Positions 1,131 through 45,988 of a stretch of 64,000 nucleotides of DNA are shown in pieces; positions within the stretch are counted from its first letter, which is position 1, and every line of letters starts with the position of its first letter. A model generated the notes under the pieces. It did no database searches and was not told the DNA's origin. It worked only from the letters and a program-made list of their open reading frames with translations. The translations under genes were made by a program, and so were the position numbers. Source of the DNA: Nocardia asteroides (GTDB lineage: Bacteria > Actinomycetota > Actinomycetes > Mycobacteriales > Mycobacteriaceae); the NCBI RefSeq assembly GCF_021183625.1, contig NZ_CP089214.1:806001-870000 (forward strand), written 5' to 3'.

Positions 1131-1153
1131 CTTACTGTCAAGCATTCCGTAAG
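1131..1153. promoter_or_regulatory. Regulon operator (TACNGTA palindrome), P450/SDR divergent promoter
   Basis: This is a 23-bp imperfect palindrome with outer arms CTTAC and GTAAG separated by 13 bases. It matches 10 of 12 fixed positions of the core TACNGTANNNNNTACNGTA found repeatedly in this window. It lies between the divergent P450 and SDR genes, 32 bp before the SDR start. It is probably bound by a TetR-family repressor (inference). Confidence 0.7.
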
Positions 1154-1184
1154 ACCTTCGAGCCGACTGGACGGTGGTATTCCC

Positions 1185-1970
1185 ATGGCACAGCCACAGC
1201 GCAGGATCGTGGTGGTCGGAGCGGGGTCCGGCATCGGCGCGGCCACCGCGGCGCACTTCCACGCGGCGGGCGAGCACGTGCTCGCGGTCGACCTGCGCGA
1301 CAACGACACCCCGGCCACCGAGCACCGCCGCTGCGACCTGCGCGACCCCGCCGCCGTCGAGCGGCTGCTCGCCGCGATCGGCGACGGCTGGGACCTGCTC
1401 GCGCACGTCGCGGGCATCCCCGGCACCGCGCCCGCCGCGGAGGTGCTCGCCGTCAACTACCTCGGCCTGCGCCGCACCGTGACCGGCATGCTGCCGCTGC
1501 TGCGCACCGGCGGCGCGGTCGTCACCGTCGCCTCGGTGGCCGCGCTCGGCTGGCAGCAGCGCATCCCCGAGCTGGAGGGGCTGCTCGCGGCGACCGACGA
1601 GGCCGCGGTGCTGGCGTGGCAGGCGGGGCAGGACCCGGCCTATCCGGTGTACAGCACCGCCAAGCAGGCCGCGGTGCTCTTCGCCACCCGGCTCGCGCCC
1701 GCGGCCTGGCAGAAGTACGGGGTCCGGGTGAACACGGTGAGCCCCGGCCCGACCGAGACGCCGATCCTCGGCGACTTCGAGACCTCGATGGGCAAGGAGG
1801 TGCTCGACACCGTGAAGGCCACCGTCGGCCGCCATGCCACCGCCGCCGACATCGTCCCGGTGATCGCGTTCCTCGGCTCGTCCGCGGCGGGCTGGGTGAA
1901 CGGCCAGGACCTGCATGTCGACGGCGGCTTCGTCGCCCCGATGTCGGTCGGCGGCCCGCTCGCGCTGTGA
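1185..1970 (+). CDS. Short-chain dehydrogenase/reductase (3-alpha-HSD-like)
   Basis: A 261-residue NAD(P)-dependent SDR. The dinucleotide-binding GAGSGIG is at residues 12-18, a serine in VASVAAL is near 117, and the catalytic pair YSTAK is near 155-159. The long insert between Ser and Tyr and the overall layout resemble 3-alpha-hydroxysteroid dehydrogenase/carbonyl reductases, but substrate cannot be assigned from that. The start is ATG, with only a weak ribosome-binding site after the upstream palindrome. The downstream P450 begins 24 bp after the stop, so the two are probably co-transcribed. Likely role: oxidising an alcohol made by a P450 to a ketone. Confidence 0.9.
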   Translation: MAQPQRRIVVVGAGSGIGAATAAHFHAAGEHVLAVDLRDNDTPATEHRRCDLRDPAAVERLLAAIGDGWDLLAHVAGIPGTAPAAEVLAVNYLGLRRTVTGMLPLLRTGGAVVTVASVAALGWQQRIPELEGLLAATDEAAVLAWQAGQDPAYPVYSTAKQAAVLFATRLAPAAWQKYGVRVNTVSPGPTETPILGDFETSMGKEVLDTVKATVGRHATAADIVPVIAFLGSSAAGWVNGQDLHVDGGFVAPMSVGGPLAL

Positions 1971-1994
1971 CCGACCACTACTGAAAGGCGCACT

Positions 1995-3194
1995 GTGGAC
2001 AGCCCCGTGCAGGAGGAACCGGTGACCATCGACCTCCGCGATCCCTACCCCTTCTTCGCCGCCAACCGCCGCGCGAACGGCGTGTACCACGGCGGCGTCA
2101 TGGACTACACCCGCACGCCGCCGGAGTTCCGGCCACGCGACTCCTGGTCCGCGCTCTCCTGGACCGCGGCCAATGCCGCGCTGCGCGACACCGAGACCTT
2201 CAGCTCGAAGCTCTACGACAGCACCATCGGCGTCTTCATGGGCCCGACGATCCTGGCCATGCACGGCTCCAGGCACAAAGCGCACCGCAACCTGGTGACG
2301 GCCGCATTCAAACCGCAGTCGCTGCGCACCTGGGAGCCGGAGATCGTGCGCCCGATCTGCACCGCGCTGATCGATGAGTTCGCCGAGCGCGGCAGCGCGG
2401 ACCTGGTGCGCGAGTTCACCTTCGAGTTCCCGACCCGGGTGATCGCCCGGCTGCTCGGGCTCCCGGAGGAGGAGCTGCCCTTCTTCCGCAAGGCCGCCGT
2501 CGACATCATCAGCTACACCGGTGACCACAGGGCCGCCTTCGCGGCGTCGGGTGCGCTGCAGGAGTACTTCCAGGGCCACATCGATCAGCGCCGATCCCAG
2601 CCCACCGAGGACATCATCGGCGACCTCGTCGCCGCCGAGATCGACGGCGAGAAGCTCACCGACGAGGCGATCTACTCGTTCCTGCGGCTGCTGCTGCCCG
2701 CCGGGCTGGAGACCACCTACCGCTCCTCGGGCAATCTGCTGTACCTGCTGCTCACCCACCCCGAGCAGTTCGAGGCGGTGCGCGCGGACCGCAGGCTGCT
2801 CAACCCCGCCATCGAGGAGGGGCTGCGCTACGAGACCCCGCTGACGCTGGTGCAGCGCACCGTCACCAGGGATACCGAGCTGGCGGGTGTGGCGATCCCA
2901 CGCGGCGCGACGCTGGACATCTGCCTCGGCGCGGCCAACCGGGACGAGCAGCGCTGGGAGCGCGCCGAGGAGTTCGACATCGCCCGGAAGCGGCTGCCGC
3001 ACCTCAGCTTCACCGCCGGCGCGCACACCTGCCTCGGGCTGCACCTGGCCCGGATGGAGACCAGGGTGGCGCTGGAGGTGCTACTGGACCGGCTGACCGG
3101 GATCACCCTGCTCGACGACGGCGACCCGCACATCTTCGGCCAGCCGTTCCGCTCCCCCACCGCGCTGCCGGTGTCGTTCGAGGTGGCCGGGTGA
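1995..3194 (+). CDS. Cytochrome P450
   Basis: A complete 399-residue P450 with a GTG start. It has the I-helix PAGLETT near residue 235, with Glu-Thr-Thr in place of the common Asp/Glu-Thr pair. The ExxR motif (EEGLR) is near 274. The haem loop FTAGAHTCLG, with ligand Cys near 345, has Thr where FGxG usually has Gly. It follows the SDR by 24 bp and is followed without a gap by a short SDR remnant that starts on its stop codon. It is probably a soluble monooxygenase in the same pathway as the divergent P450. Substrate unknown. Confidence 0.94.
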   Translation: MDSPVQEEPVTIDLRDPYPFFAANRRANGVYHGGVMDYTRTPPEFRPRDSWSALSWTAANAALRDTETFSSKLYDSTIGVFMGPTILAMHGSRHKAHRNLVTAAFKPQSLRTWEPEIVRPICTALIDEFAERGSADLVREFTFEFPTRVIARLLGLPEEELPFFRKAAVDIISYTGDHRAAFAASGALQEYFQGHIDQRRSQPTEDIIGDLVAAEIDGEKLTDEAIYSFLRLLLPAGLETTYRSSGNLLYLLLTHPEQFEAVRADRRLLNPAIEEGLRYETPLTLVQRTVTRDTELAGVAIPRGATLDICLGAANRDEQRWERAEEFDIARKRLPHLSFTAGAHTCLGLHLARMETRVALEVLLDRLTGITLLDDGDPHIFGQPFRSPTALPVSFEVAG

Positions 3195-3331
3195 GCGAGC
3201 GCGACCCCTTCGACCTGTCCAGGCGTTCGGCACCGGTCACCGGCGCCGCGGGCGGGATCGCCGCGGCGGCCCGCGTCGCAGCGCTCGGCACAGCGGGGAT
3301 TGCCGTTCCCGCCCAGGAAGGAACGTCATGA
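3191..3331 (+). pseudogene. Remnant of an SDR gene, N-terminal fragment
   Basis: A GTG that overlaps the P450 stop (GTGA) opens a 46-codon frame that reads FDLSRRSAPVTGAAGGIAAA. This is recognisably the start of an SDR: the beta-1 strand and a TGxxxGxG motif whose last Gly has become Ala. It then ends without any further Rossmann fold, and its TGA overlaps the ATG of the next gene (ATGA). This looks like an internally deleted dehydrogenase whose reading frame survives, perhaps because it keeps translation coupled between its neighbours. Similarity is judged by eye. A short genuine coupling peptide is the alternative. Confidence 0.6.
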
Positions 3332-4131
3332 CCGTCCTCCTCGTCGAGCAGCACGGCGGCGTGCGCACGCTCACGCTGAACCGCCCGGAGCGGCGCAATG
3401 CGCTCGATCGCGCGCTCTGGGCGGCGCTGCGGGAGCAGCTCGCCGAGATCGCCGCCGGCGCGGCGCGGGCGGTCGTGCTCACCGGCGCCGGCGGCGCATT
3501 CTCCGCCGGAGCCGACCTCTCCGCCACCGCCGACGTCGAGGAGTTCCCCGACCCGGCCGAGGAGATGCGCGGCATCAACGAGGTGGTGCGGCGGCTGCAC
3601 GAGCTGCCGGTGCCGACGGTGGCCAAGGTGCGCGGCCCGGCCTACGGCGCGGGCTGGAACCTCGCGCTCGCCTGCGATCTCGTGATCGCGGCGCCCGATG
3701 CCCGGTTCTGCCAGATCTTCACCCGCCGGGCGCTCTCCCCGGACTGCGGCGGGTCGTGGGTGCTGCCCCGGCTCGTCGGGTTGCAGCAGGCCAAGCGGCT
3801 CACCCTGCTCGCCGAGGCGATCGGCGCGGAGGAGGCGCGCCAGCTCGGGCTCGTCACCTGGGTGCGGCCGGAGGCCGAGATCGACGCCCGCACCGCCGAA
3901 CTCGCCGGGCGGCTCGCCGCCGGAGCGCCGACCGCGCTCGCCCAGACCAAGGCGCTGCTCGCCGCCGGCGCGGACCGGACCCTGGCCGAGGCGCTCGACG
4001 CCGAGACCCGCGCGCAGGCGGTGAACCTCGCCGGGACCGACGTCCTCGAGGCGTTCGCCGCCTTCCTGGAGAAACGCGAGCCGATATTCCCCGGCGCGAA
4101 CGGGAATTCGACCGCCGCCGAGATAATGTGA
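3328..4131 (+). CDS. Enoyl-CoA hydratase/isomerase (PaaG-like crotonase)
   Basis: A 267-residue crotonase-fold enzyme. The first oxyanion-hole segment, AFSAGADLSA, is near residues 55-64, and GPAYGAGWNLAL near 105-116 is the second. Where classical hydratases place the second catalytic Glu, this protein has ALSPDCGGSWVLPR, the SPD-GGS pattern of PaaG-type isomerases/hydratases. The ATG follows an AGGAAGGA ribosome-binding site. It overlaps the stop of the SDR remnant and is downstream of the P450, so it is probably the last gene of that operon. Expected to act on an unsaturated acyl-CoA; whether it hydrates or isomerises is open. Confidence 0.9.
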   Translation: MTVLLVEQHGGVRTLTLNRPERRNALDRALWAALREQLAEIAAGAARAVVLTGAGGAFSAGADLSATADVEEFPDPAEEMRGINEVVRRLHELPVPTVAKVRGPAYGAGWNLALACDLVIAAPDARFCQIFTRRALSPDCGGSWVLPRLVGLQQAKRLTLLAEAIGAEEARQLGLVTWVRPEAEIDARTAELAGRLAAGAPTALAQTKALLAAGADRTLAEALDAETRAQAVNLAGTDVLEAFAAFLEKREPIFPGANGNSTAAEIM

Positions 4132-4182: not shown

Positions 4183-4217
4183 CACACGGTAAACCCCGTG
4201 GTAGCATCTACCGTGCG
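4183..4217. promoter_or_regulatory. Two overlapping regulon operators upstream of the TetR gene
   Basis: Two 23-bp sites (4183-4205 and 4195-4217) overlap with a 12-bp offset and share the middle half-site. The half-sites read ACGGTA, TGGTAG and CTACCGT. Each full site matches about 8 of 12 core positions, but the outer halves are strong. GGTAG-CAT-CTACC is itself a perfect palindrome at 4200-4212. The position 85 bp before a TetR gene suggests autoregulation. Confidence 0.6.
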
Positions 4218-4301: not shown

Positions 4302-5150
4302 ATGGCGAAGCGCGCAACGCCAGTGAAGCGGCAGCGCCGCGAGCGAGGATCGCTCAATCCCGATGACATCATCCAGGGCGCTTTCGAACTCGCCGAAGAG
4401 GTCTCCATCGACGGGCTGAGCATGCCGCTGCTCGGCAAACACCTCGATGTCGGCGTCACCAGCATCTACTGGTACTTCCGCAAGAAGGACGACCTGCTCA
4501 ACGCCATGACCGACCGGGCGCTGAGCCAGTACGCCTTCGCCGCGCCCTTCGTCGAGGCCGACCACTGGCGCGAGACGCTGCGTAATCACGCACGGACAAT
4601 GCGGGAAACGTTTCTCGGTAATCCCATTCTCTGCGATCTGATTCTGATCCGCTCCGCGCTGAGCCGCGATGCCGCCCGTCTCGGCGCGCAGGGAATCGAG
4701 CGCGCGATCAACACTCTGGTCAAAGCGGGATTCTCCGTCGACGACGCCTTCGACCTCTATTCCGCGATCAATCTGCACGTGCGCGGCTCGGTCGTATTGC
4801 AGCGGCTCTACGACAAGAACAAGGAACTCGACGCCGAGGCGTCCGCGTACTACGAGGACATCGCCATCGAGCCGGAGACAACGCCGCTGCTCGCCGAGGC
4901 GATGGCGCGGGGGCGGCGCAGTGGCGCGCCCGACGATCGGAACTTCGAGTACGGGCTGGAGTGCATTCTCGACCACGCGAGCCGGGTGATCGCGGGCAGC
5001 GCGCCCGCCGCCCCGGCGAAGAAGGCGCCCGCGAAGGCGGCGGCCGAGACCGCGGCGCCGGCCAAGGCTCCGGCGAAGAAGACCGCCGCGAAGCGCTCCG
5101 CGACGAAGGCGCCTGCCACGCGCACCCGGCGCACCGCCGCCGCCTCCTGA
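4302..5150 (+). CDS. TetR-family regulator with a lysine/alanine-rich tail
   Basis: A 282-residue transcriptional repressor candidate. The N-terminal helix-turn-helix covers about residues 19-65, with recognition helix around DVGVTSIYWYFRKKDDLL. The middle part is an all-helical ligand domain of the TetR_C type. From about residue 234 to the end it is a Pro/Ala/Lys-rich tail built from PAKKA-like units, as in histone H1 or mycobacterial HupB, which is unusual for TetR proteins. The ATG at 4302 is preferred because GAGGAAG precedes it; GTG at 4290 is possible. Its own promoter carries two copies of the regulon palindrome, so it is the best candidate for the local regulator. It may sense an acyl-CoA (inference). 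Confidence 0.88.
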   Translation: MAKRATPVKRQRRERGSLNPDDIIQGAFELAEEVSIDGLSMPLLGKHLDVGVTSIYWYFRKKDDLLNAMTDRALSQYAFAAPFVEADHWRETLRNHARTMRETFLGNPILCDLILIRSALSRDAARLGAQGIERAINTLVKAGFSVDDAFDLYSAINLHVRGSVVLQRLYDKNKELDAEASAYYEDIAIEPETTPLLAEAMARGRRSGAPDDRNFEYGLECILDHASRVIAGSAPAAPAKKAPAKAAAETAAPAKAPAKKTAAKRSATKAPATRTRRTAAAS

Positions 5151-5271: not shown

Positions 5272-6153
5272 TCACGGCTCCGGCACGTGGAAGTGCTCGT
5301 CCCGCAACCGGAACGCCTCGCGCGTACCATGCTCCGCCCGCGTCTTGACGAAGTTGAACTCGCCCGCGCCGAACTGCAGATTCGTGCCGAAAGCGTGGAA
5401 GAGGTAGCTCGCCACCTCCTCCCCCTGGTACGCCTGGCTCTGCTCCACCAGCCGGAACGCCTCCTTGGCGATCACCACCCCGTCGGCGGGCATCTTCGCC
5501 GCCTTCTCCGCCCAGTAGCGCGCCCGCGCCGTCACCTGCCCCGGCTCGCAGGTCTCGGTGAACACGCCGAGGTGCTCGAGCGTGCCCGCCTCCACGATGT
5601 CGCCGGTGAGCAGCAGCCGCCGCGCCAGCACCGGGCCGAGCCGGTGGAAGAACATGTGCAGGCTGCCGAGCGCGGGGCCGAGGAAGCGGGTGGCGGGCAT
5701 GCCGAGCCGCGCGTCCCGCGCGACCACGGCGATATCGGCCATCAGCGCCAGCTCGAAGCCACCACCGAGGGCGAAGCCGCCGACCTCGGCGACGGTGACC
5801 TTCGGGAAGCCGAGGAACTCGTGGTAGAAGTCGAAGGACCTGCGATCCACGGTGAGCCTGCGCCGCTGGCTCGGCCTGCTCTTCTTCGGCGCGGCGCCGT
5901 TGCCATCCCCGTACCAGCCGTAGGCGTTGTTCATGTCGGCACCGGTGCTGAACACGCCGCCCGCGCCGCGCAGCAGGACAACGGTGATGTCGTCGTCGGC
6001 GGCGACCTCGTCGAGGAAGCCCGCCAGGCCGTCGCGCATGGTCGCGTCGTAGGAGTTGCGGCGCTCGGGGTTGTTCAGGGTGATCGTGGCGATCCGGCGG
6101 TCCTCGTCCACCTCGTAGCGGACGCGGCCGTCGGCGGCGCTGGAAGCGGTCAT
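5272..6153 (-). CDS. Enoyl-CoA hydratase/isomerase family protein
   Basis: A 293-residue crotonase-fold protein. It has the acyl-CoA binding segment FSTGADMNNAYG near residues 68-79, followed by an inserted loop rich in Gly/Lys/Arg, and the oxyanion-hole Gly segment GGFALGGGFELAL near 125-137. The usual second Glu position is FLGPALGSLHMFF, so catalysis may differ from classical hydration. ATG overlaps the stop of the upstream thioesterase-like gene (TGATG), so the two are translationally coupled. It ends just before a strong terminator. Substrate unknown. Confidence 0.87.
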   Translation of the reverse strand: MTASSAADGRVRYEVDEDRRIATITLNNPERRNSYDATMRDGLAGFLDEVAADDDITVVLLRGAGGVFSTGADMNNAYGWYGDGNGAAPKKSRPSQRRRLTVDRRSFDFYHEFLGFPKVTVAEVGGFALGGGFELALMADIAVVARDARLGMPATRFLGPALGSLHMFFHRLGPVLARRLLLTGDIVEAGTLEHLGVFTETCEPGQVTARARYWAEKAAKMPADGVVIAKEAFRLVEQSQAYQGEEVASYLFHAFGTNLQFGAGEFNFVKTRAEHGTREAFRLRDEHFHVPEP

Positions 6154-6824
6154 CGCGGGATCCCTTCGGTCGTCGGCGCGCCGGGGGCCCGGCGGCGGCC
6201 GTATCCGGTGCCGGTGAGGCGTTCCGGCGTCGCCGCGACCGTCGCGACCGTCGCGCGGCACAGCACCTCGTCGCCGCGGCGCAGCTGGGCGTTCGATTCG
6301 ATGCCCGCCGCGGTGGCCGTGCGCGCGATCGCGAAGTTCAGCTCGGTGAGCAGCGGGGTCGGGCGCCGGTAGGTGATCGTCAGCGACCTGGTCTTGCCGG
6401 TCACCCCCGCCGCGCAGCTGTGCTGCTGGACCACGCAGTCGAAGAAGACGCCGAGGAAGCCACCGTGCACCAGCCCCGGCGGGCCCTCGAAGGTCACCGG
6501 GAAGCTCACCCGCCCGGTCGCCGATGCCGGGTCGGCGGCATCGAAGACGTACTCGGGGAAGCTCGGGTTGTAGGCGCCGATGTCGAAGGCGTGGTCGAGG
6601 TAGATCCGGCGCTCCGGGTCGTCCGCGGCGTCGCCCACCCGTGGCCGCGGGTCGGCCGGCGCGGTGGCGGTGAGCGCGCGCTCCCACTCCGCGAACCGCG
6701 GCAGCATCTCCTCGACCACCGGCTGCGGCTGCTCCTGCGCGAGCAGCAGCGCGGTGAGCCGGCGCAGCGCGGCCGCCGCCGCCCCGGTCTGGGCCAGCGG
6801 CCGCTCACCGAAATGGATCTCCAT
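6150..6824 (-). CDS. Hotdog-fold thioesterase-like protein
   Basis: A 224-residue protein. The C-terminal half has PaaI/4HBT features: GPPGLVHGGFLGVFFDCVVQ near residues 115-134 matches the GxVHGG(x)ALxxxxD motif, followed by TRSLTITYRRPTPL, the typical central beta-strand. The N-terminal 90 residues are a helical extension. It probably hydrolyses an acyl-CoA or removes a stalled thioester. It is the first gene of a two-gene operon with the crotonase at 5272 and is divergent from the crotonase run at 6919. The 23-bp regulon palindrome lies in the shared promoter. Confidence 0.8.
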   Translation of the reverse strand: MEIHFGERPLAQTGAAAAALRRLTALLLAQEQPQPVVEEMLPRFAEWERALTATAPADPRPRVGDAADDPERRIYLDHAFDIGAYNPSFPEYVFDAADPASATGRVSFPVTFEGPPGLVHGGFLGVFFDCVVQQHSCAAGVTGKTRSLTITYRRPTPLLTELNFAIARTATAAGIESNAQLRRGDEVLCRATVATVAATPERLTGTGYGRRRAPGAPTTEGIPR

Positions 6825-6868: not shown

Positions 6869-6891
6869 GCAACGGTATTGTCTACTGTATC
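6869..6891. promoter_or_regulatory. Regulon operator between thioesterase and crotonase operons
   Basis: A 23-bp site with half-sites ACGGTA and CTACTGTA matches 11 of 12 core positions. It is in the 94-bp divergent promoter, 28 bp before the GTG of the crotonase operon. A second inverted repeat, CTACTG-N9-CAGTAG (6882-6902), overlaps its right half. Confidence 0.7.
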
Positions 6892-6918
6892 TATCTCAGT
6901 AGCGAATGGAGGACGGCG

Positions 6919-7707
6919 GTGGGCGACGCGGAGACCGGAGTACGGCGGGACGGGGTGGTGCTGCGGCTCACCCTCGACCGGCCGGGGCGGCGCAACTCGC
7001 TGACCCCGGAGATGGTCGAGACCCTGGTCACCGCGCTGACCGCGGCCGCATCCGACGACACCCTGCGCGCCATCCACCTGCGCGGCGCGGGCGAGCACTT
7101 CTGCGCGGGCGTCGACTTGGTCTCCGGCAACACCGGCGACGCCAAGCCGCGCACCGGCTCGGTGCTGCGCCGTGTACCGCACACCGCGCACCGGGTGATC
7201 GAGCTGCTGCACACCGTCCAGCTCCCGGTGGTCGCCACGGTGCGCGGCTGGGCCGCGGGCATGGGCTGCAACCTGGCACTGGCCGCCGATTTCACCGTCG
7301 CCGCCCCCGGCGCGACCTTCTGGGAGCCGTTCCTCGACCGCGGCTTCAGCCCCGACTCCGGCGCCACCTGGCTGCTGCCGCGGCTGACCGGGCTCGCCAG
7401 GGCCAGGCGGATGCTGCTGCTCGGCGAGCGGGTGGACGGCACCACGGCCGCCGAGTGGGGGCTGATCCACGAGGTCGCCGACGACCCGGACGCCGCCGCC
7501 GAGGCACTGCTGGCCCGGCTCGCCGCCGCGCCGACCGTCGCGTTCGGGCTGGCCAAGCAGGCACTGGCGCAGAACCTGCACGCGACCCTGCCGCAGGCCA
7601 TGAACAACGAGCTGTTCGCGCTCGAACTGGCCTGCCGCACCCGCGATTTCAAGGAGGGCCTCGCCGCCTTCCGCGACCGCAGGGCACCGGAGTTCGAGGG
7701 CCGATGA
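6919..7707 (+). CDS. Enoyl-CoA hydratase/isomerase (PaaG-like)
   Basis: A 262-residue crotonase. The GTG start is chosen because GGAGGA precedes it by 5 bases. It has LDRPGRRNSLT near residue 20, HFCAGVDLVSG near 60, GWAAGMGCNLALAADF near 108-123 and GFSPDSGATWLLPRL near 140-154, again the SPD-G pattern of PaaG-type enzymes. It is the first of five consecutive genes with ATGA/GTGA overlaps (three crotonases and two acyl-CoA ligases), so it is certainly part of an operon. Its promoter carries the regulon palindrome. Confidence 0.9.
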   Translation: MGDAETGVRRDGVVLRLTLDRPGRRNSLTPEMVETLVTALTAAASDDTLRAIHLRGAGEHFCAGVDLVSGNTGDAKPRTGSVLRRVPHTAHRVIELLHTVQLPVVATVRGWAAGMGCNLALAADFTVAAPGATFWEPFLDRGFSPDSGATWLLPRLTGLARARRMLLLGERVDGTTAAEWGLIHEVADDPDAAAEALLARLAAAPTVAFGLAKQALAQNLHATLPQAMNNELFALELACRTRDFKEGLAAFRDRRAPEFEGR

Positions 7708-8531
7708 CCACCGACGAAGGGAAGCCCATGCCGTACGAGTCCATCGGATACGAGGTCGAGGGGCATACGGCCACCGTCACGCTGAACCGGCCCGACGCGC
7801 TGAACGCGCTGAGCCCGCACATGATCACCGAGTTGCGCGCCGCCTACGCCGAGGCCGAGCACGACGACCGCGTCTGGCTGCTGATCGTCACCGGCACCGG
7901 CCGGGCCTTCTGCACCGGAGCCGACGTCAAGGCAATCCCCGGCGACGGCAAGGTGCTGAACGAGCGCCCGTACCTGTCCACCTACGAGCAGTGGGAGGCG
8001 CCGCAGGAGGGCACTCCCCCGTTCCGCACCATGGCCAAACCGATCCTGACCGCGGTGAACGGGATCTGCTGCGGGGCCGGGCTGGACTGGGTGACCACCT
8101 CCGACATCGTGATCGCCTCCGAGCGGGCCACCTTCTTCGACCCGCACGTCAGCATCGGCCTGGTCGCCGGGCGCGAGGTGGTGCGGCTGGCGCGGGTGCT
8201 TCCCCGCTCGGTGGCGCTGCGGATGGCGATCATGGGCAAGCACGAGCGGATGAGCGCCGCCCGCGCCTACGAACTCGGGATGATCACCGAGGTGGTCGAG
8301 CACGACCGGCTGCTGGAGCGCGCGCACGAGCTCGCCGCCGTGGTCAACCGGAACGCGCCGCTCGCCGTGCGCGGCACCCGGCTCGCGATCCAGAAGGGGC
8401 TCGACCTGCCGCTGCACGAGGCGGAGATGCTGGCCGAGTCCTTCCGCGAGCGCGTCACCCGCACCGAGGACGCGCTGGAGGGGCCGAAGGCGTTCGTGGA
8501 GAAGCGGACTCCGCAATGGCGGGCGCGGTGA
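7704..8531 (+). CDS. Enoyl-CoA hydratase/isomerase family protein
   Basis: A 275-residue crotonase-fold protein. It contains FCTGADVKAIPGDG near residue 70 (oxyanion hole) and GICCGAGLDWVTTSD near 115-129. The second active-site region, FFDPHVSIGLVAGREVVRL, has no Glu at the usual hydratase positions, so it could be an isomerase, hydrolase or another crotonase type. ATG overlaps the preceding stop (ATGA). A second ATG at 7728, preceded by AAGGGAAG, could be the true start. It is strikingly similar in layout to the next gene (ATFFD, VSxGLV), so the pair may be a duplication. Confidence 0.87.
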   Translation: MTTDEGKPMPYESIGYEVEGHTATVTLNRPDALNALSPHMITELRAAYAEAEHDDRVWLLIVTGTGRAFCTGADVKAIPGDGKVLNERPYLSTYEQWEAPQEGTPPFRTMAKPILTAVNGICCGAGLDWVTTSDIVIASERATFFDPHVSIGLVAGREVVRLARVLPRSVALRMAIMGKHERMSAARAYELGMITEVVEHDRLLERAHELAAVVNRNAPLAVRGTRLAIQKGLDLPLHEAEMLAESFRERVTRTEDALEGPKAFVEKRTPQWRAR

Positions 8532-9343
8532 GCGCGGGCACCCCGGCGCACTCCGACGCCGCCGGATACGACACCGTGCTGCTCGAGGTCGATCCGGCGG
8601 CGAAGGTCGCCACCATCACCCTCAACCGGCCGGAGCGGCTCAACGCCTTCGACCGGCGCATGTGCGAGGAGATGGCCCGGATCTGGCAGTCACTGCGCAC
8701 CGACGACCGGGTGCACGCGGTGGTGCTGCGCGCCGCGGGCGAGCGTGCCTTCAGCGCCGGGCTCGACATCAAGTCCAGCTACGGCCAGCCCGGCAGCATC
8801 TGGCACCACGAGGATCCGGGCGAACTGCTCAGCCCCAAGTGGCAGAAGATGTGGAAGCCGGTGGTCTGCGCGGTGCAGGGCATCTGCACCGCGGGCGCGT
8901 TCTACTTCGTCAACGAATCCGACATCGTGCTCTGCGCCGAGGAGGCCACCTTCTTCGACTCGCACGTCTCGGCCGGACTGGTCTCCGCGCTCGAACCGAT
9001 CGGGCTGATGCGCCGGGTCGGGCTCGGCGAGACGCTGCGCATGGCGCTGCTCGGCAACGACGAACGGGTCTCCGCCGCGACCGCGCTGCGCATCGGGCTG
9101 GTGAGCGAGGTCGTGCCACGGGCCGGACTCCGGGCACGGGCGCACGAGATCGCCGCGACGATCGCCGCCAAACCGCCGTCGGCCACCCAGGGCACCGTCA
9201 AGGCGATCTGGGAATCGCTGGACAAGCCGTACCGCGCCGCCCTGGACCAGGGGCTGATCTACACCCGGCTCGGCAATCCGCTCGGCACCGCCGAACTCGC
9301 CGCGCGCGGCGGACCCGCCCCCACCGAACCGAGGATTCGCTGA
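8528..9343 (+). CDS. Enoyl-CoA hydratase/isomerase family protein
   Basis: A crotonase-fold enzyme of 271 residues from the GTG that overlaps the preceding stop (GTGA); ATG at 8516 is the alternative. Motifs: LNRPERLNAFD near residue 36, FSAGLDIKSSYGQPG near 75-89, GICTAGAFYFVNESD near 119, and ATFFDSHVSAGLVSALEPIG near 139-158. Like its upstream neighbour it lacks the canonical catalytic Glu pattern but keeps an ALEP glutamate. It is middle gene of the crotonase/ligase operon. It probably processes a later intermediate of the same pathway. Confidence 0.87.
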   Translation: MSAGTPAHSDAAGYDTVLLEVDPAAKVATITLNRPERLNAFDRRMCEEMARIWQSLRTDDRVHAVVLRAAGERAFSAGLDIKSSYGQPGSIWHHEDPGELLSPKWQKMWKPVVCAVQGICTAGAFYFVNESDIVLCAEEATFFDSHVSAGLVSALEPIGLMRRVGLGETLRMALLGNDERVSAATALRIGLVSEVVPRAGLRARAHEIAATIAAKPPSATQGTVKAIWESLDKPYRAALDQGLIYTRLGNPLGTAELAARGGPAPTEPRIR

Positions 9344-26812: not shown

Positions 26813-26813
26813 T

Positions 26814-31721: not shown

Positions 31722-31731
31722 GCGACCGGCC

Positions 31732-33757: not shown

Positions 33758-33770
33758 CTGAACTCCCGAT

Positions 33771-34247: not shown

Positions 34248-34270
34248 CTTACGGTAATATCAACCGTAAA
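34248..34270. promoter_or_regulatory. Regulon operator between DUF35 and PPOX genes
   Basis: A 23-bp site with arms CTTACGGTA and ACCGTAAA, 11 of 12 core positions, one of the best copies. It is 32 bp before the PPOX start and 60 bp before the DUF35 start, so it can control both directions. Confidence 0.78.
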
Positions 34271-35945: not shown

Positions 35946-35958
35946 AGGAGTACCACCC

Positions 35959-37348: not shown

Positions 37349-38692
37349 TCAACGGTTCACCAGCTCCACGGCCTGTGCCCTGGCCCGGCCCCGCGGCAAC
37401 TCTTCCAGGCGCAGCTGCCGCTCGTAGGGGAAGAACTCCACCTGCTGGGTGTGGCGCGGCCGGTCGAGCACGTGCCCGAGGTAGCGCCGCTCGTCCTCGG
37501 CGACGACCCGCTCCATCTCCGCCTCCGGTGGCGGCAGGTACTCCCCCGCGGCGTAGGCGGCGATCAGCCTGGCCTGGCACTCCACGAACGGGAACAGCGT
37601 CGGCACCGACTGGGCCAGCCCCGCGAAGGCCAGATCCGGGGTGCCCGGCCGCAGGATCCGCTTGTAGAGCGGGATGCGGTTGCCCGGCGCGCTGAGGAAG
37701 TCCGGGTCGAAGAAGGGGAAGGTGATGTTGTACCCGGTGGCGTAGATGATGACGTCGAACTCGGCGCTGCTGCCGTCGGTGAAGCGCACCAGCGTGCCGT
37801 CCAGCTCGCTGATGTCCGGCTTCGGCAGCACGTCGCCGGAGCCGAGCCGCAGCGGCAGCTCCACCGACTGGGTGCCGTGCGCGTCCAGGAACCGGTGCCG
37901 CGGGCGCGGCAGCCCCCAGCGTTCGGGGTTGCCGGAGATGAACTCGGCGAAGGCGTTCACCGCCGCGCGGTAGACCGGGCGCGGGACGAAGGGCAGGGCC
38001 GCGCCGTACTTGTCGACCGGCCGCCCGGCCATGTACTTCGGCACGATCCAGGAGCCGGAGCGGGTGGAGAGGTACACGGTGTTGCCCAGCGCCCGGGAGG
38101 AGAGCTCCACGGTGATGTCGGCGGCGCTGTTACCGAGCCCGACCACCAGGATGCGCCTGTTCCGCAGGTCGAGCGGGTGCGCGGGATCGATGTAGGCGTG
38201 CGAGTGGATCACCTCCCCGTCGAAGCGGCCGGGGAAGTCGGGGAAGCGCGGGTCCCAGTGGTGCCCGTTGGCGACCACGAGGAACTCGGCCTCGCGCTGC
38301 TCGCCGGTGCCGAGGTGCAGCGTCCAGCCGCCCTCCGGGTGGTGTTCGGCGCGGACCACCGCGGTGCCGAACTCGATGGTGTCGAGCAGGTCGAAGGAGG
38401 CGGCGTAGTCGTCCAGGTACCGCTTGATCAGGCTGTGGTGCGGGAAGTCCGGGTAGGTCTGCGGCATCGGGAAGTCGCGAAAGGACAGCTGGTACTTCGA
38501 GGTGTCGATGTGCAGCGACCGGTACGCGCTGGAGTGGCCGTTCGGGTTGCCGAAGGCCCAGTTGCCGCCGATGCGGTCGGACGCCTCGAAGCAGGTGTAG
38601 GGAACGCCGTAGTCGGCGAGCATCTTCCCCGCGGTCAGCCCGGCGATGCCCGCGCCGATGATCGCCGTCGAAGACGGCCGGAACGCTCCCAT
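37349..38692 (-). CDS. Flavin-containing monooxygenase (FMO/BVMO-like)
   Basis: A 447-residue FAD/NADPH monooxygenase. IIGAGIAGLTAGKML near residues 11-25 is the FAD Rossmann motif. The region FPGRFDGEVIHSHAYIDP near 153-170 corresponds to the FMO fingerprint FxGxxxHSxxY. LVVGLGNSAADITVEL near 178-193 is the NADPH motif and IIYATGYNITFPF near 321-333 the C-terminal ATG motif. GAAGG precedes the ATG. It may form a lactone/ester from a ketone or oxygenate a heteroatom. A weak regulon palindrome lies just upstream. Confidence 0.9.
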   Translation of the reverse strand: MGAFRPSSTAIIGAGIAGLTAGKMLADYGVPYTCFEASDRIGGNWAFGNPNGHSSAYRSLHIDTSKYQLSFRDFPMPQTYPDFPHHSLIKRYLDDYAASFDLLDTIEFGTAVVRAEHHPEGGWTLHLGTGEQREAEFLVVANGHHWDPRFPDFPGRFDGEVIHSHAYIDPAHPLDLRNRRILVVGLGNSAADITVELSSRALGNTVYLSTRSGSWIVPKYMAGRPVDKYGAALPFVPRPVYRAAVNAFAEFISGNPERWGLPRPRHRFLDAHGTQSVELPLRLGSGDVLPKPDISELDGTLVRFTDGSSAEFDVIIYATGYNITFPFFDPDFLSAPGNRIPLYKRILRPGTPDLAFAGLAQSVPTLFPFVECQARLIAAYAAGEYLPPPEAEMERVVAEDERRYLGHVLDRPRHTQQVEFFPYERQLRLEELPRGRARAQAVELVNR

Positions 38693-38713
38693 TTCGACAC
38701 ACCTTCTGTTGGC

Positions 38714-38736
38714 ATTTCGGTATGTAGAATAGTATG
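38714..38736. promoter_or_regulatory. Weak regulon operator upstream of FMO gene
   Basis: A 23-bp site with half-sites TTCGGTA and ATAGTA, 9 of 12 core positions, 22 bp upstream of the FMO start. It is the poorest of the listed copies. Confidence 0.4.
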
Positions 38737-38798
38737 GCAAACGGTCAGCTGTCGGCAGGGGGAACCGGAGGTTCTGCGGGCATCGATCGAAGAGCCGC

Positions 38799-41142: not shown

Positions 41143-42390
41143 TCAGCGGCCGGGCATGGTGAAGATCGCGCCGGTGTCGATGGGCTCGACGTCGACCAGG
41201 GTGCCGTCCTCCTCGGCCCGGCCGACGAGCCCGGCGCTGGAGCAGATGTTCGGGACCACGGGGACCGGCTTGCTGCCGCACTGGAAGGTGTCCCCGCCGG
41301 AGAGCGAGAGCGGTGCGGGCTCGGGCATCGCGCTCAGCCGGGCGATCACCGACTGCCTGCTGAGCTCGCCCTGCGCGCCGTTCAGCGCGGAGTGCAGCCC
41401 GAGCAGCGCGCGGAACGCCGACGCCGCCTTGCGCGGATCCTTCGCGCCCGAGCCGTCGACCACCGCGTCGAAGATCTTCGTGTCCGGCTGCGCCGGGTCG
41501 AAGACGGTATTGGCGATGACCCGGACGTCGGAGTACCCACCCGGGATCTGCGCGGCGGCATCGGCGTCGCCGACGCACTGGGTGACCGTCATGACCGGCT
41601 GCGTGGTGTTCAGCGTCCGCATGGCCTTGAGCGCCGCGGTGCAGAACGAGACGTCGCCGAGCAGGTGGAACATGTCCGGCTGCTTCGCCAGCGCCGCCTG
41701 GACCTGCGGGGTCATGTCCGCGGTGCCGAGCGGCACCGGCACCACGTCGAGCTGGGCGCCGGCATTGCCGAAGGCGAACGGCCCGAGCTGGCGCAGCGGC
41801 TCGACGGCGGTCGGCGAATCGACGGTCAGGATGGCGACCTTCCTGTACTGCTGCTGCTTCGCGTAGGCGGCGGGCACGCCCGCCAGCGAGTTCAGCGCGT
41901 TGATCAGCACATAGGTGTTCGGCAGCAGCAGCGACTGCTGCCCACCGGCCGCGGTGACGTAGGGCATCCCGGACGGTGAGGTGATCGAGGTGATGGTGTC
42001 GGCGCTGTTCAGCTCACCGCTGACCACGGCGACCGCGTCGGACTGGACGAACTTGTTGGCGCAGTTGCGCGCCAGGCTCACCTGGAGTTCGTCCTCGCAG
42101 GTGATCAGCTCGATCGGGCGGCCATCGATCCCGCCGAGGTAGTCGTTGATGTAGGCGGCCGTCGCGGTGGCGACCTCGAGCTCCTCGGTGTAGACCGGCG
42201 CCTTCGGGCCGGTGGTGACGAATCCGATGCGCACCGGGGCACCGGTGGCCTTGTTCGGCTGCCCGAGCACGGACTTGTCCGCCGGGGTCGCCGCCGAATC
42301 GGCACCGCCGGAACAGCCGGAGGCGAACAACGCGGCCGCGAGGGCGAGGCACGGCAGCGCCGCCCACCGGGTGCGGGTGAAGGGGGACAT
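41143..42390 (-). CDS. Liv-type ABC transporter substrate-binding lipoprotein
   Basis: A 415-residue periplasmic-binding protein of the branched-chain amino-acid type (type 1 fold). The signal peptide is residues 1-26, with lipobox FASGCSGG giving an acylated Cys near residue 26. VRIGFVTTGPKAPVYTEELE near 53-72 and INDYLGGIDGRPIELITCED near 80-99 match the Liv family. Cys pairs occur in the mature part. It is encoded directly after the ATPase and permease genes. Liv-type systems in actinobacteria often carry hydrophobic or aromatic acids, so the ligand here is likely the pathway substrate rather than an amino acid (inference). Confidence 0.9.
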   Translation of the reverse strand: MSPFTRTRWAALPCLALAAALFASGCSGGADSAATPADKSVLGQPNKATGAPVRIGFVTTGPKAPVYTEELEVATATAAYINDYLGGIDGRPIELITCEDELQVSLARNCANKFVQSDAVAVVSGELNSADTITSITSPSGMPYVTAAGGQQSLLLPNTYVLINALNSLAGVPAAYAKQQQYRKVAILTVDSPTAVEPLRQLGPFAFGNAGAQLDVVPVPLGTADMTPQVQAALAKQPDMFHLLGDVSFCTAALKAMRTLNTTQPVMTVTQCVGDADAAAQIPGGYSDVRVIANTVFDPAQPDTKIFDAVVDGSGAKDPRKAASAFRALLGLHSALNGAQGELSRQSVIARLSAMPEPAPLSLSGGDTFQCGSKPVPVVPNICSSAGLVGRAEEDGTLVDVEPIDTGAIFTMPGR

Positions 42391-42413
42391 GACGATCTCC
42401 TGAGATAGGCGGA

Positions 42414-43130
42414 TCACTCCGCGGTTGTGCTGCTTTCGCCGCCCAGGTAGGCGGCCTCCAGGCGCTCCGGCGCCCGCGCGAGCTCCGCGGCCGGGCCGCG
42501 CAGCGTCACGTCGCCGTGGACGAGGACAACGGCGTCGTCGGCGACCGCGAGGGCCAGCCGCACGTGTTGCTCGACCAGGACAACCGCGGCATCGGCGTCG
42601 TCCGCGACCCGCCGGACGGCGGGCAGCAGCTCCTCCACCACGACCGGTGCCAGCCCCATGCTCATCTCGTCGATGAGCAGCACCGCGGGGTTCTGGATCA
42701 GCGCCCGGCCGACCGCGAGCATCTGCTGCTCGCCGCCGGAGAGCGCGCCCGCGGCGACCCTGCGGCGCTGCCGCAGCGCGGGCAGCAGGTCGAGGATGTC
42801 ATCGAGCGGGCGGCGGCTCCGGCCGCGGGCGAGTTCGAGGTGCTCGGCGACGGTCAGGCCGGTGAACAGCGCCCTGCTGTCCGGCACGAGCACGACACCG
42901 GCCCGGTTCGCCCTGGCCGGAGCGGCTTTCGGCAGGCGGGTGCCCGCGACGGTGATCTCCCCGCCGAGCGCGGGAAGCAGCCCGGCCATGGTCAGCATGA
43001 GCGTGGTCTTCCCGGAGCCGTTCGGTCCGAGCAGCGCGGTGACCGTGCCGGAGCGGACCTCGAGGTCGAGGCCGCGCACGATCGCCAGCTTGCCGTATCC
43101 GGCGGTCACGCCGGCCAGTCGCAGGCTCAT
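42414..43130 (-). CDS. Liv-type ABC transporter ATPase (LivF-like)
   Basis: A 238-residue ABC ATPase of the LivF kind. Walker A is GPNGSGKTT near residues 35-43, the signature ALSGGEQQML near 133-142, Walker B AVLLIDEMSMGL near 154-165, followed by the switch His in VEQHVRLAL near 197. The last base of the ATG lies inside the upstream fused transporter gene, so they overlap by 4 bp and are coupled. It would form a heterodimer with the ATPase domain at the end of that fusion. Confidence 0.93.
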   Translation of the reverse strand: MSLRLAGVTAGYGKLAIVRGLDLEVRSGTVTALLGPNGSGKTTLMLTMAGLLPALGGEITVAGTRLPKAAPARANRAGVVLVPDSRALFTGLTVAEHLELARGRSRRPLDDILDLLPALRQRRRVAAGALSGGEQQMLAVGRALIQNPAVLLIDEMSMGLAPVVVEELLPAVRRVADDADAAVVLVEQHVRLALAVADDAVVLVHGDVTLRGPAAELARAPERLEAAYLGGESSTTAE

Positions 43131-45844
43131 CCGACGACCTCCTCGGTGAACCGGGTGCCGAGGTAGGCCTCGGCCACCTTCCGGTCGGCGCGGATCCGCT
43201 CGGGGCTGCCCGCCGCCAGGGTGCGGCCGAAGTTCAGCACCTGGATGTGGTCGCAGACGCCGAGCACCAGGCTCATGTCGTGCTCGACCAGCAGGATCGT
43301 CACCCCGCCCGCCCGGATCGCCCGCAATCGCTCACCCAGCCACCGGCTCTCGGTGCTGTCCAGCCCGCCCGCCGGTTCGTCCAGGAGCAGCAGCTCCGGT
43401 CGGCCCGCGAGTGCGCGCGCGATCGACACCAGCTGGCGTTGCCCCTGGGACAGTTCGCCCGCGGGGGTGTCGCAGAGCTCGCCGAGCCCGAGCAGGGTGA
43501 ATACTTCGTCGAGTTCGGCCGCAGTACCGCCTTTTTCGCTGTGACCGGAGAGCCCGACCAGGACGTTCTCCCGGACGCTCAGGTCCTCGTACAGTTCGAT
43601 GGCCTGGAAGGTCCGGCCGAGCCCGGCGTGCACGCGGCGGTGCACGGGTCTGCCGCCGAGCGGCACCCCGCCGAGCGTCACCGTTCCCGCCGCGCGCACC
43701 GACCCGGTGATCGCGTCGATCAGCGTCGTCTTCCCCGCGCCGTTGGGGCCGATCAGCCCGACGATGGCGCCGCGCCGCACGGTGAAGCTCACGTCGTCCA
43801 CCGCGACCACCCCGCCGTAGCGGACGGTCACACCGTCCAGCGTCAGCAGCGGATCACCCGGTTCGACGGGTTCGGTATCGAGTGGCGGTGGCGCGGTCGG
43901 AGCGGCAGGCGCGGGACGCTTGCCACTTCGGGCCAATGCCCGCTGCACGGGGGCGGCGATGCCGTCGGGGTTCGCCAGCACCGTGATCAGCAGCGCGAAC
44001 CCGACGATCACCTGGTACCAGGCGCCCGCCGACTCGCCGAGCTTGCCGAGTAGCAGGAACGCCACTCCCCCCGCGCCGAGCACGCCGCTCAGCAGCCCGC
44101 CGGAGATCGAGGTCGTGCCCGCCAGGTAGACGATGGCGAACAGGGTCAGCGCGGCGGGCGCGGTGAAGGATTGGAAGGAGACGTTGGTCTGCTGGTAGGC
44201 CAGCAGGCTGCCGCCGAGCCCGGCGATGAAGGCGCCGATCGCGAAGGCGAGCAGCTTGGTGCGGACCACGTCGACGCCGGAGGCCGCGGCCGAGCGCTCG
44301 TTGGCGCGCACCGCCAGCATCCGGGTGCCGAGCCTGCCGCGCCGCAGCACGGCGACACCGACGCCGACCGCCGCGAGCACCGCCAGGCACAGCAGCCCGA
44401 ACTCCAGCCGCGGGTAGGTCTCGCCCCGGCCGATGCCGAGGCTGTGGCCGAAGATCACCGGATCCGGGATGTCGATTCCGCTCGACCCGACGAAGTCGAG
44501 ATTGCGGAACCACAGCGCCTCCAGGGCATAGGCCAGCGCCAGCGTGACGACCGCGAGGGTGAGGCCGCGGATCCGGAGCGCGGGCAGCCCGGCGAGCACG
44601 CCGAGCACCGTCGCCACCAGCGCGGCCAGCAGCGGCGCGAACGGGAACGGCACGCCGAGCCCGTCGGTGATCGGGCCGAGGACGAAGGCCGCGGCCCCCG
44701 CCAGCGAGAGCTGGGCCAGCGACACCTGACCGGCGTACCCGGTGACCACCACCTGGGACAGGCCGATGACGCCGAGGATCAGGGTGGTGGTGATCGCGAC
44801 CCGCAGGTCGTTCCCGGACAGCACCAGCCCGGCCGCGGCGACCGCGACACCGGCCACCGTGCACAGCAGCACTTTTCGCGGGTAGGGCGCGGTGCCCAGC
44901 TCGGCGACGACGACCGCGCCGCGCGCGGGCAGCGGCCGAGCCCTGATCACGAGCACCACCAGGATCACCACCAGCGGCACCAGCTCCACCAGCCCGCTGG
45001 AGGGCAGCCACTCGTACACCCGGACGAGGTAGGTCGCCTCGGATTGCAGCATGCCGATCACCAGCCCGGCGACCGCGGCCGCGACCACCGACGCGAACCG
45101 GCCGATGATCGCCGCGGCCAGCGCGGGGACGATGAACAGCACGTACCCGGTCGGGCTGAGCGGCACGATCGGCGCGATCAGGATGCCCGCCGCGCCAGCG
45201 ACCGCCGCGCTGATCATCCAGTTGGCGGCCGCGATCCGGTCCGGCGACAGGCCGCTGACGTAGGCGCCCTCCTCGCTCTCGGCGGTGGCGCGGGTGGCGA
45301 GGCCGAAGCGGGTGAACCGGTAGAGCGCCGCGAGCGCCACCGCCAGCACGAGGATGCTGACCCCGAACAACACCCGGTCCTGCGGAATCCTGACGGCGCC
45401 GACGGTCCAGATATCGACGGGGAAGATCGCCCGCACCCCGACGGAGTTCGAGCCGACCTGCTTGCTCGCGATGGCCAGCAGCAGGATCATCAGCGCGAGC
45501 GAGGCGACGGCCCGCGCGATCGGCGGAGCCTTGCGCAGCGGACGGAAGATCAGCACGTAGACCAGCAGCCCGAAGAGCGCCGAGAGCGTCACCGCGATCA
45601 GCGCCGAGAGCGCGAAGCCGGGGTCGCCGCCGATCTCGACCGACTTCGGCAGCCCGGGCACCAGCAGCACGAACTCGCCCCTGCGCAGGAAGGCGTAGAT
45701 GTACGCGCAGTTCAGCGCCATGGCACCGGTCGCGAAGTTGAGCACGCCCGAGCTGCGGTAGGTCAGGACCAGGGCGATGGCGAGGGCGCCGAAGACGCCG
45801 CCGCTGCCGATGCCGAGCAGCAGGAACTGGAGGTGCTGGCTCAT
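43127..45844 (-). CDS. Fused Liv-type ABC transporter: permease-permease-ATPase
   Basis: A 905-residue protein joining three normally separate subunits. Residues 1-300 are a LivH-like permease (LTYRSSGVLNFATGAMALN near 26). Residues 310-620 are a LivM-like permease (VVTGYAGQVSLAQLSLAGAAAF near 367-388), with about 15-17 membrane helices in total. After a Pro-rich linker with TAPPPLDTEPVEP, a LivG-like ATPase fills 660-905, with Walker A GPNGAGKTT near 695, signature LSQGQRQL near 797 and Walker B LLLLDEPAGGL near 820. I chose the ATG at 45844 by homology. A regulon palindrome lies 122 bp upstream. Confidence 0.9.
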   Translation of the reverse strand: MSQHLQFLLLGIGSGGVFGALAIALVLTYRSSGVLNFATGAMALNCAYIYAFLRRGEFVLLVPGLPKSVEIGGDPGFALSALIAVTLSALFGLLVYVLIFRPLRKAPPIARAVASLALMILLLAIASKQVGSNSVGVRAIFPVDIWTVGAVRIPQDRVLFGVSILVLAVALAALYRFTRFGLATRATAESEEGAYVSGLSPDRIAAANWMISAAVAGAAGILIAPIVPLSPTGYVLFIVPALAAAIIGRFASVVAAAVAGLVIGMLQSEATYLVRVYEWLPSSGLVELVPLVVILVVLVIRARPLPARGAVVVAELGTAPYPRKVLLCTVAGVAVAAAGLVLSGNDLRVAITTTLILGVIGLSQVVVTGYAGQVSLAQLSLAGAAAFVLGPITDGLGVPFPFAPLLAALVATVLGVLAGLPALRIRGLTLAVVTLALAYALEALWFRNLDFVGSSGIDIPDPVIFGHSLGIGRGETYPRLEFGLLCLAVLAAVGVGVAVLRRGRLGTRMLAVRANERSAAASGVDVVRTKLLAFAIGAFIAGLGGSLLAYQQTNVSFQSFTAPAALTLFAIVYLAGTTSISGGLLSGVLGAGGVAFLLLGKLGESAGAWYQVIVGFALLITVLANPDGIAAPVQRALARSGKRPAPAAPTAPPPLDTEPVEPGDPLLTLDGVTVRYGGVVAVDDVSFTVRRGAIVGLIGPNGAGKTTLIDAITGSVRAAGTVTLGGVPLGGRPVHRRVHAGLGRTFQAIELYEDLSVRENVLVGLSGHSEKGGTAAELDEVFTLLGLGELCDTPAGELSQGQRQLVSIARALAGRPELLLLDEPAGGLDSTESRWLGERLRAIRAGGVTILLVEHDMSLVLGVCDHIQVLNFGRTLAAGSPERIRADRKVAEAYLGTRFTEEVVG

Positions 45845-45939
45845 GCCCGCGGCCTTGCGGATTCCCGATTCGGGAGGTGTCGGCGCATCGCGTACCCAAC
45901 TTTCCGGTCGGCACATTCGCCGACCGGATGGTCGGTATC

Positions 45940-45965
45940 GTTACCTGCCGTGTGACGTGGGTAAC
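45940..45965. repeat. Inverted repeat adjoining the ABC-transporter operator
   Basis: GTTACC (45940-45945) and GGTAAC (45960-45965) with a 14-base spacer. It touches the regulon palindrome at 45966. It may be a second regulator site or promoter structure. Confidence 0.4.
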
Positions 45966-45988
45966 AGTACGGTAGGAGTTACCGTAAG
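45966..45988. promoter_or_regulatory. Best regulon operator, upstream of ABC importer
   Basis: This is the only copy matching all 12 fixed positions of TACNGTANNNNNTACNGTA, with half-sites TACGGTA and TTACCGTAAG. It lies between the peroxiredoxin gene and the fused transporter gene and ties substrate import to the catabolic genes. Confidence 0.75.

Follow-up and report, generated by a model that had tools for sequence, protein, structure and literature searches.

KstR and KstR2 have given handles on actinobacterial steroid catabolism. Both are TetR-family repressors of cholesterol catabolism in mycobacteria and rhodococci, with palindromic operators tens of bases from start codons, divergent promoters among their targets, and lipid and steroid catabolic genes under their control. 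The KstR operator is presumably of the AAC..GTT type (TNNAACNNGTTNNA). For KstR2, the operator is given as AnCAAGnnCTTGnT in passages of PMC3068626. Here we analyze 64,000 nucleotides of Nocardia asteroides (the window; positions 806001-870000 of contig NZ_CP089214.1, G000:C1, the single contig of a genome of 6,986,884 bases), in which a TetR-family gene at 4302-5150 lies among catabolic genes preceded by recurrent palindromic sites. The arrangement resembles that of KstR and KstR2 in its TetR-family predicted repressor, in palindromic sites tens of bases from gene starts, in divergent promoters and in catabolic genes of a lipid or steroid type, but differs in operator sequence and spacing, in that the regulator belongs to the TetR_C_1 group, and in that the enzymes include homologues of PF04909 oxygenases. 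We conclude, with a probability of roughly 0.87, that the sites are operators of one catabolic regulon, with this TetR protein as predicted repressor and a polycyclic terpenoid- or steroid-like acid as predicted substrate. As far as sequence can tell, this is a real, conserved TetR regulon of the KstR kind, with a well supported regulator. It would be the third large regulon of that kind, found in many Nocardia and Mycobacterium species, with operator and regulator named together; through these two, an uncharacterised pathway becomes testable, and the PF04909 dinuclear oxygenases, a poorly known class, are tied to a catabolic setting.

Among described motifs, one outside the KstR regulons comes close in its letters. 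In passages of PMC3388012, a comparison of mycobacterial genomes is reported to have revealed a TAC-N6-GTA motif; its sites lie in groups of 2-3 ahead of Rv3229c, Rv3230c and Rv2524c. The two motifs share a TAC/GTA palindrome and the clustering of sites; however, the motif described in those passages has a 6-bp gap and fatty-acid gene targets, whereas here TACNGTA recurs every 12 bp. TAC-N6-GTA was rejected as a description of the sites, with one exact match in the window versus 1.12 expected, at 4180 beside the degenerate site of the TetR promoter. Likewise rejected were KstR-type sites (TNNAACNNGTTNNA; two one-mismatch matches versus 2.4 expected, none at the operators) and the KstR2 type (AnCAAGnnCTTGnT; one one-mismatch match versus 0.25 expected, at 29549 inside a PorA-like gene). 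The view of a preliminary description of this DNA that the motif is neither of these two thus holds. Passages of PMC4482099 present 11 motifs of mycobacterial TetR proteins as logos whose letters could not be read, and the genes they list are those of M. tuberculosis. A literature search aimed at the motif and the regulon found no description, in line with the earlier label 'apparently undescribed'; subscription papers lay mostly outside its coverage, so that this is not proof.

To describe the architecture of the sites, TACNGTA units (5 or 6 of 6 letters) were paired with no preset spacing in 83 sequences, i.e. this stretch, 80 named loci around TetR genes (the best 80 of 304, with flanks of at most 10 kb, many of the Mycobacterium loci being near-duplicates) and two Skermania stretches. 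At 12 bp, 124 distinct pairs were found; over the range of 7-60 bp, no other spacing exceeded 21. The arrays comprise 97 with two units and nine with three; the strict three-unit array of this genome's stretch is that at 30593 alone. Across 210 distinct sites, the unit letters dominate, the outer letters of the spacer lean towards T/A, and the middle of the spacer varies. The palindromic sites of the preliminary description are present, but its 23-bp palindrome is better described as 7-bp TACNGTA units every 12 bp.

A scan of the window with the 19-bp core pattern TACNGTANNNNNTACNGTA (TACNGTA-N5-TACNGTA) yielded 16 matches with at most three mismatches, compared to 1.70 expected (sd 1.23, maximum 6 in 100 dinucleotide shuffles; Table 1). 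All previously listed sites but one were recovered, each core starting 2 bp later; the site listed at 4183/4195 proved weak (four mismatches), with two fair outer units, a poor middle unit and a best overlapping weight-matrix match of 4.6 bits at 4209. A site missing from that list, 1979, lies just ahead of the P450 gene at 1995. Genome-wide, 29 core matches with at most two mismatches were found, 14 of them at 790.8-852.0 kb and two at 929.06 kb. The site-rich stretch spans 63 kb, about one quarter of it upstream of the window, and the regulon thereby reaches approximately 15 kb beyond the window, to 790.8 kb. When overlapping matches were merged, 11 of the 25 operators fell in this stretch, whereas 20,000 random placements gave at most six per 63-kb window.

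A weight matrix was built from 203 sites of other genomes, this genome being left out (both orientations, 406 rows), and applied to 184 kb around the cluster, 8.9% of which is non-coding. It produced 22 matches scoring 12 bits or more, whereas 20 shuffled versions averaged 0.6. Of the 22, 19 lie in the 63-kb stretch, two at 929 kb and one at 887.9 kb. By gene calls and start choices made with our own codon-usage script and no standard gene finder, all 20 core matches with at most three mismatches at 790-852.5 kb are intergenic, 7-145 bp from the nearest called start, which bears out the earlier statement that nearly all sites lie within 130 bp of operon starts; 15 of the 20 sit 20-80 bp ahead of the nearest start codon. 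Beyond the site-rich stretch, two of eight matches are intergenic and six lie in called genes, one of these a doubtful 62-aa call. With the longest possible reading frames, some sites (6871, 23805, 38704) would lie within a frame. Thus, in these 184 kb, matrix matches are not equally frequent elsewhere or inside genes, and the scan proposed in the preliminary description did not refute the regulon.

The TetR gene and the sites occur together across 301 genomes of the family. Counting sites with at most one mismatch, and taking E = 1e-70 or better as a close relative of the TetR protein, at least three sites were present in 43 of the 44 genomes with a close relative, compared to 5 of the 252 without a match at E 1e-40 (Fisher p = 6e-45, phylogeny ignored; the 5/252 tally was made by eye and the site numbers were transferred by hand). 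Five genomes with a TetR protein that is only 37-42% identical (G146, G152, G224, G265 and G368) stand outside both groups and have 1, 5, 1, 0 and 1 sites, respectively; in G152, all five share the contig of the TetR gene. In six genomes with sites and no close TetR relative (G113, G143, G136, G273, G059, G011), the sites mostly occur singly and far apart, and G136 and G059 each contain one adjacent pair. Among 98 Nocardia genomes, 92 contain a TetR match at E 1e-10, in most cases a distant one; all 15 with a match at E below 1e-100 have 5-25 sites, and the other 83 have 0-5. A reversed control pattern gave 2-21 matches in those 15 genomes and did not track the TetR gene. Four variant sites (e.g. 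TAAAGTA-N5-TACNGTA) in 44 kb of contig C38 of G016 (L149-L151) were rejected as members of this regulon because the contig has neither a cluster homologue nor a TetR of this group.

The sites are also conserved ahead of orthologous genes. At least one is present in 78 of the 80 named loci, with 313 matches in total compared to 1-72 for eight permuted control patterns. For individual promoters, we counted sites with at most two mismatches from −220 to +25 bp around the aligned start in 82 loci (the 80 named loci and the two Skermania stretches), excluding orthologues that fell below 50% identity, started beyond residue 30, covered less than half of the query or had an upstream stretch running past the edge of the locus. 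A site precedes 56/56 orthologues of the crotonase gene at 6919, 53/54 of its divergent partner at 6150, 10/10 of the P450 gene at 1995 and 43/46 of the SDR gene at 31732, compared to 0/160 for the operon-internal genes at 8516, 9343 and 10856. Several genes that are internal here lead operons elsewhere and then have a site: 7704 (6/58), genome 793627 (7/8), 825768 (4/7) and 827453 (3/4). In a Skermania genome (G139, taken as Skermania piniformis), the cluster is present, most genes are 70-90% identical, and sites occur in the matching promoters; despite gene rearrangement, sites are kept ahead of orthologous operons in Skermania, Aldersonia and Mycobacterium. In Mycobacterium, 52 of 58 orthologues of the TetR gene itself have a site ahead of them; autoregulation is thus suggested in Mycobacterium and appears weak in this genome. 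These data bear out the earlier proposal that one shared motif unites one catabolic cluster, which genome clustering, co-occurrence and orthologue conservation all back, and the same lines of evidence support the TetR protein at 4302-5150 as its regulator.

This protein belongs to the TetR_C_1 group of the TetR family by its domain scores (TetR_N, 41.2 bits with a cut-off of 24; TetR_C_1, 51 bits with a cut-off of 21). Its DNA-binding part is near-invariant in 23 Nocardia, Aldersonia and Mycobacterium sequences. An AlphaFold2 model (mean pLDDT 77.6) shows the all-helical TetR fold, with low confidence in the Lys/Ala-rich tail; the 50 Foldseek matches listed consist of Tet repressors or their engineered relatives (best E 1.6e-8), and a sequence-profile search for solved relatives gave Tet repressors first and others, including SimR, further down. 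The profile match and the predicted fold thus liken it to the TetR_C_1-type proteins SimR and TetR(A/B/D). SimR, like the protein here, presumably has a basic N-terminal arm, and the SimR operator presumably also contains GTA-N5-TAC. Unlike SimR and TetR(A/B/D), which control adjoining drug efflux genes, the present regulator would face many catabolic operons, and many of its group have a long Lys/Ala-rich tail. This histone-like C-terminal tail varies greatly in length among relatives (including loci L098 and L142). In G146, a TetR protein of approximately 40% identity has the same recognition helix (VGVTSIYWYFRKK), and the one site of that genome (one mismatch) lies between its TetR gene and an importer homologous to that of the window (permease-ATPase 53%, ATPase 57% and binding protein 30% identical).

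Several observations weigh against this reading or narrow it. The reversed control pattern has 83 genome matches with at most two mismatches, compared to 29 for the motif; the bare total therefore shows no excess, and the case rests on the place of the sites and on co-occurrence. In several TetR-bearing genomes, the control count is about equal to the site count (10 and 10 in G103, 8 and 7 in G014), and G374 (610 contigs, 7% contamination) lacks any site despite its close TetR relative. Directly ahead of the TetR gene, no site with at most two mismatches was found in any of 23 orthologues from Nocardia and other non-Mycobacterium genomes, and the site beside the gene in this genome is degenerate. 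Few orthologues have an operator at genome 790898 (4/53), 802576 (4/57), 805831 (3/9), 807209 (3/10), 823197 (1/7) and 830020 (0/8), in part because the genes are operon-internal elsewhere; in the Mycobacterium locus L093, the 790898 and 802576 orthologues appear operon-internal, with a site further upstream. Among the TetR genes at 4302, genome 792220 and window 46703, the genome-wide co-occurrence covers that at 4302. Finally, the substrate is suggested by homology alone, and binding, repression and the inducer are inferences from sequence.

A different regulator might bind the sites. Candidates are the two TetR_C_11 proteins encoded at genome 792220 and window 46703, which are of the TetR family and lie at the edges of the site-rich stretch, or a regulator encoded elsewhere. 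We regard this as improbable given that a search of 40 kb of Skermania matched neither protein and that, at the above thresholds, the 82 loci contain one orthologue of the 792220 gene and none of the 46703 gene, a limited test with loci that mostly extend no more than 10 kb from the 4302-type TetR gene; the latter, in contrast, accompanies the sites in nearly all genomes with a close relative, and a site is retained beside the distant relative whose recognition helix is identical. There is a similarly small chance that the regulon is real but that the TetR protein activates, or works both ways, rather than acting as a plain repressor. Some TetR-family proteins are activators, and a few starts have their site at a distance of 116-145 bp, which might fit an activator. 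Nevertheless, three quarters of the sites in the stretch lie at the distance from the start codon at which an operator would cover the promoter, and among the closest relatives of solved structure are the Tet repressors and SimR, the latter a repressor according to the passages of PMC5812520.

An origin of the sites in shared ancestry or duplicated promoter DNA, with no operator function, can hardly be credited. Gene duplication is evident in the cluster, with its several crotonases and ligases, but the features common to the sites are chiefly their TAC/GTA letters and the 12-bp register, and the centre of the spacer varies; the register stands out from all other spacings, and the sites outlast gene shuffling across genera. 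A promoter element as the origin of the motif was also considered and was dropped because of the TetR co-occurrence.

If the TetR protein at 4302-5150 is the repressor, a dimer would bind each GTA-N5-TAC core together with its TAC and GTA flanks, and three-unit operators would accommodate two dimers 12 bp apart with the middle TACNGTA unit in common. The bound protein would block the promoters; an intermediate of the pathway, possibly a CoA ester, would release it, and its release would induce the importer, oxygenases, acyl-CoA ligases, and ring and side-chain degradation together.

The enzymes of the cluster suggest a polycyclic terpenoid- or steroid-like acid as the substrate, given its three homologues of PtmU3/DitZ-type oxygenases, a KshA-like Rieske oxygenase, P450s and a pair of SCP2-type thiolase and DUF35 protein; all cluster genes likely belong to one predicted pathway. 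The site-rich stretch also encodes thiolases, CoA-transferases and several acyl-CoA ligases, and five crotonase genes flank the TetR gene. The best solved relatives of the Rieske protein are 3-ketosteroid 9alpha-hydroxylases (E 2e-36), and genome gene 799484 encodes a protein similar to two acyl-CoA dehydrogenases, Tcur3483 (E 5e-47) and 4x28 (E 4e-38), presumably heteromeric steroid-type enzymes. For the PF04909 protein encoded at window 35959-37257, matches were obtained to DitZ (E 2e-107) and to PtmU3 (E 5e-30). Passages of PMC7782822 give the six ligands of PF04909 dinuclear oxygenases as D-x-H, H, E and D-x-x-H, all of which are kept in this protein; the set is kept in three of the four PF04909 proteins of the cluster (genome 790898, 840716 and 841959) and not in the short one (801727). 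PtmU3 is described as a diiron beta-hydroxylase of diterpenoid biosynthesis acting on CoA-linked substrates, and AibH1H2 as an oxygenase composed of two such proteins (passages of PMC7782822 and PMC10811679); for DitZ, no statement of its role was found in the literature searched. By its matches to DitZ and PtmU3 and by its ligands, the protein of the window resembles the PtmU3/DitZ/AibH2 group of amidohydrolase-related dinuclear oxygenases, but the members described in those passages act in diterpenoid biosynthesis or amino-acid catabolism, whereas here the setting is an actinobacterial CoA-ester catabolic cluster. We infer that the oxygenase and the thiolase/DUF35 pair may together open a blocked carbon. 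A more far-reaching version, which is speculative and which we consider rather unlikely as a whole, would make the TetR protein a widespread master repressor (in Nocardia and slow-growing mycobacteria) of a new polycyclic terpenoid-like acid route, in which PtmU3-type dinuclear oxygenases hydroxylate the blocked beta-carbon of the CoA ester, the SCP2-thiolase/DUF35 pair under the same operator (34250) cleaves by retro-aldol, and the repressor occupies 12-bp-register arrays as overlapping dimers sharing a palindromic half-unit.

Table 1 Predicted operators and genes of the regulon in the window (coordinates are window positions; mismatches refer to the 19-bp core).
Feature	Position	Strand	Details
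Operator, one good core and a poorer unit 12 bp off	1121..1151		1133: 2 mismatches; partner 1121: 3; 22.5 bits; divergent promoter, P450 (-)/SDR (+)
Weak operator ahead of P450 1995	1979..1997		3 mismatches; 8.7 bits; site at 10/10 orthologues
Degenerate operator upstream of TetR gene	4185..4215		4 mismatches per 19-mer; missed by the scan with at most 3 mismatches
Operator, two overlapping cores	6871..6901		6871: 1 mismatch; 6883: 2; divergent promoter 6150 (-)/6919 (+); conserved at orthologues
Operator ahead of acyl-CoA dehydrogenase 17197	17149..17167		2 mismatches; site at 1/7 orthologues
Operator	23805..23823		2 mismatches; divergent promoter 22946 (-)/24020 (+); within longest frame of 22946-23860
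Second operator, 22946/24020 promoter region	23862..23892		23862: 2 mismatches; 23874: 3; 24.6 bits
Operator, three units each with at least 5/6 letters	30593..30623		30593/30605: 2/2 mismatches; ahead of kinase-like gene and SDR
Operator	34250..34268		1 mismatch; 26.0 bits; divergent promoter, DUF35/SCP2-thiolase (-) and PNPOx/amidohydrolase-like oxygenases (+); conserved in Skermania
Weak operator ahead of FMO gene	38704..38734		38704/38716: 3/3 mismatches; 17.3 and 15.1 bits
Operator, perfect core and poorer third unit	45968..45998		45968: 0 mismatches; 45980: 3; 22.8 and 16.1 bits; ahead of ABC importer operon
Cytochrome P450	2..1069	-	start 1069; 3' end beyond window
SDR dehydrogenase	1185..1970	+	
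Cytochrome P450	1995..3194	+	
Crotonase	3328..4131	+	
TetR-family regulator (TetR_N and TetR_C_1), proposed repressor	4302..5150	+	basic N-terminal arm, Lys/Ala-rich C-terminal tail
Crotonase	5272..6153	-	
Conserved protein, no Pfam match	6150..6824	-	leads its operon
Three crotonases	6919..9343	+	
Two AMP-forming acyl-CoA ligases	9343..12445	+	
Acyl-CoA dehydrogenase	17197..18363	+	
SDR, acyl-CoA ligase, aldehyde dehydrogenase, NAD_binding_2 dehydrogenase	18836..23860	-	last starts at 23755 or 23860
SDR, FAS1_DH-like protein, thiolase, CoA-transferase family III, acyl-CoA dehydrogenase	24020..29203	+	FAS1_DH-like match weak (below cut-off)
APH/EcKL kinase-like protein and SDR	30642..32529	+	
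SCP2-type thiolase and DUF35 (ChsH2 C-terminal-like) partner	32609..34187	-	
PNPOx_N (PPOX-class) protein	34303..34695	+	NCBIfam PPOX match below its cut-off
Two adjacent PF04909 proteins	34716..37260	+	dinuclear-oxygenase set of six metal ligands present; DitZ and PtmU3 matched by the second
Flavin-binding (FMO-like) monooxygenase	37349..38740	-	start 38692 or 38740
Branched-chain-type ABC importer (binding protein, ATPase, fused permease-ATPase)	41143..45916	-	

Other sites and neighboring genes were observed in the same analysis. A weight-matrix match of 10.2 bits at window 30390 lies 48 bp ahead of a PorA-like porin gene, which may therefore belong to the regulon. The distant operator at genome 929059/929071 is located ahead of a crotonase gene that ends a Mce-type operon (928248-937669; MlaE permeases and an MlaD protein). 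A second, divergent TetR gene of this genome (221068-221790; L148:6104-6832), whose product belongs to the same TetR group and is approximately 40% identical to the first, lies beside CoA-transferase and P450-like genes; no site with at most two mismatches was found in the 15 kb around it, and upstream of it two TACNGTA-like units are separated by 6 bp. It possibly governs a sister regulon.

In Mycobacterium lepraemurium (L086), several cluster genes match piecewise in different frames, as if decayed, and some sites and the TetR frame persist. A Mycobacterium branderi plasmid that encodes a relative of one oxygenase has just one match, with three mismatches, in 41 kb. Inside the cluster, window positions 13702-17077 encode MerR and ArsR regulators along with a cation-efflux protein and a DUF3703 protein, at a G+C content of 69.0%, compared to approximately 72%, and the syntenic stretch of Skermania lacks these genes; this segment is probably an inserted metal-resistance module. 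At window 48495-55429, an open reading frame of 2058 aa precedes a gene in which a barstar domain was matched, a combination that looks like a large polymorphic-type toxin with its immunity protein.

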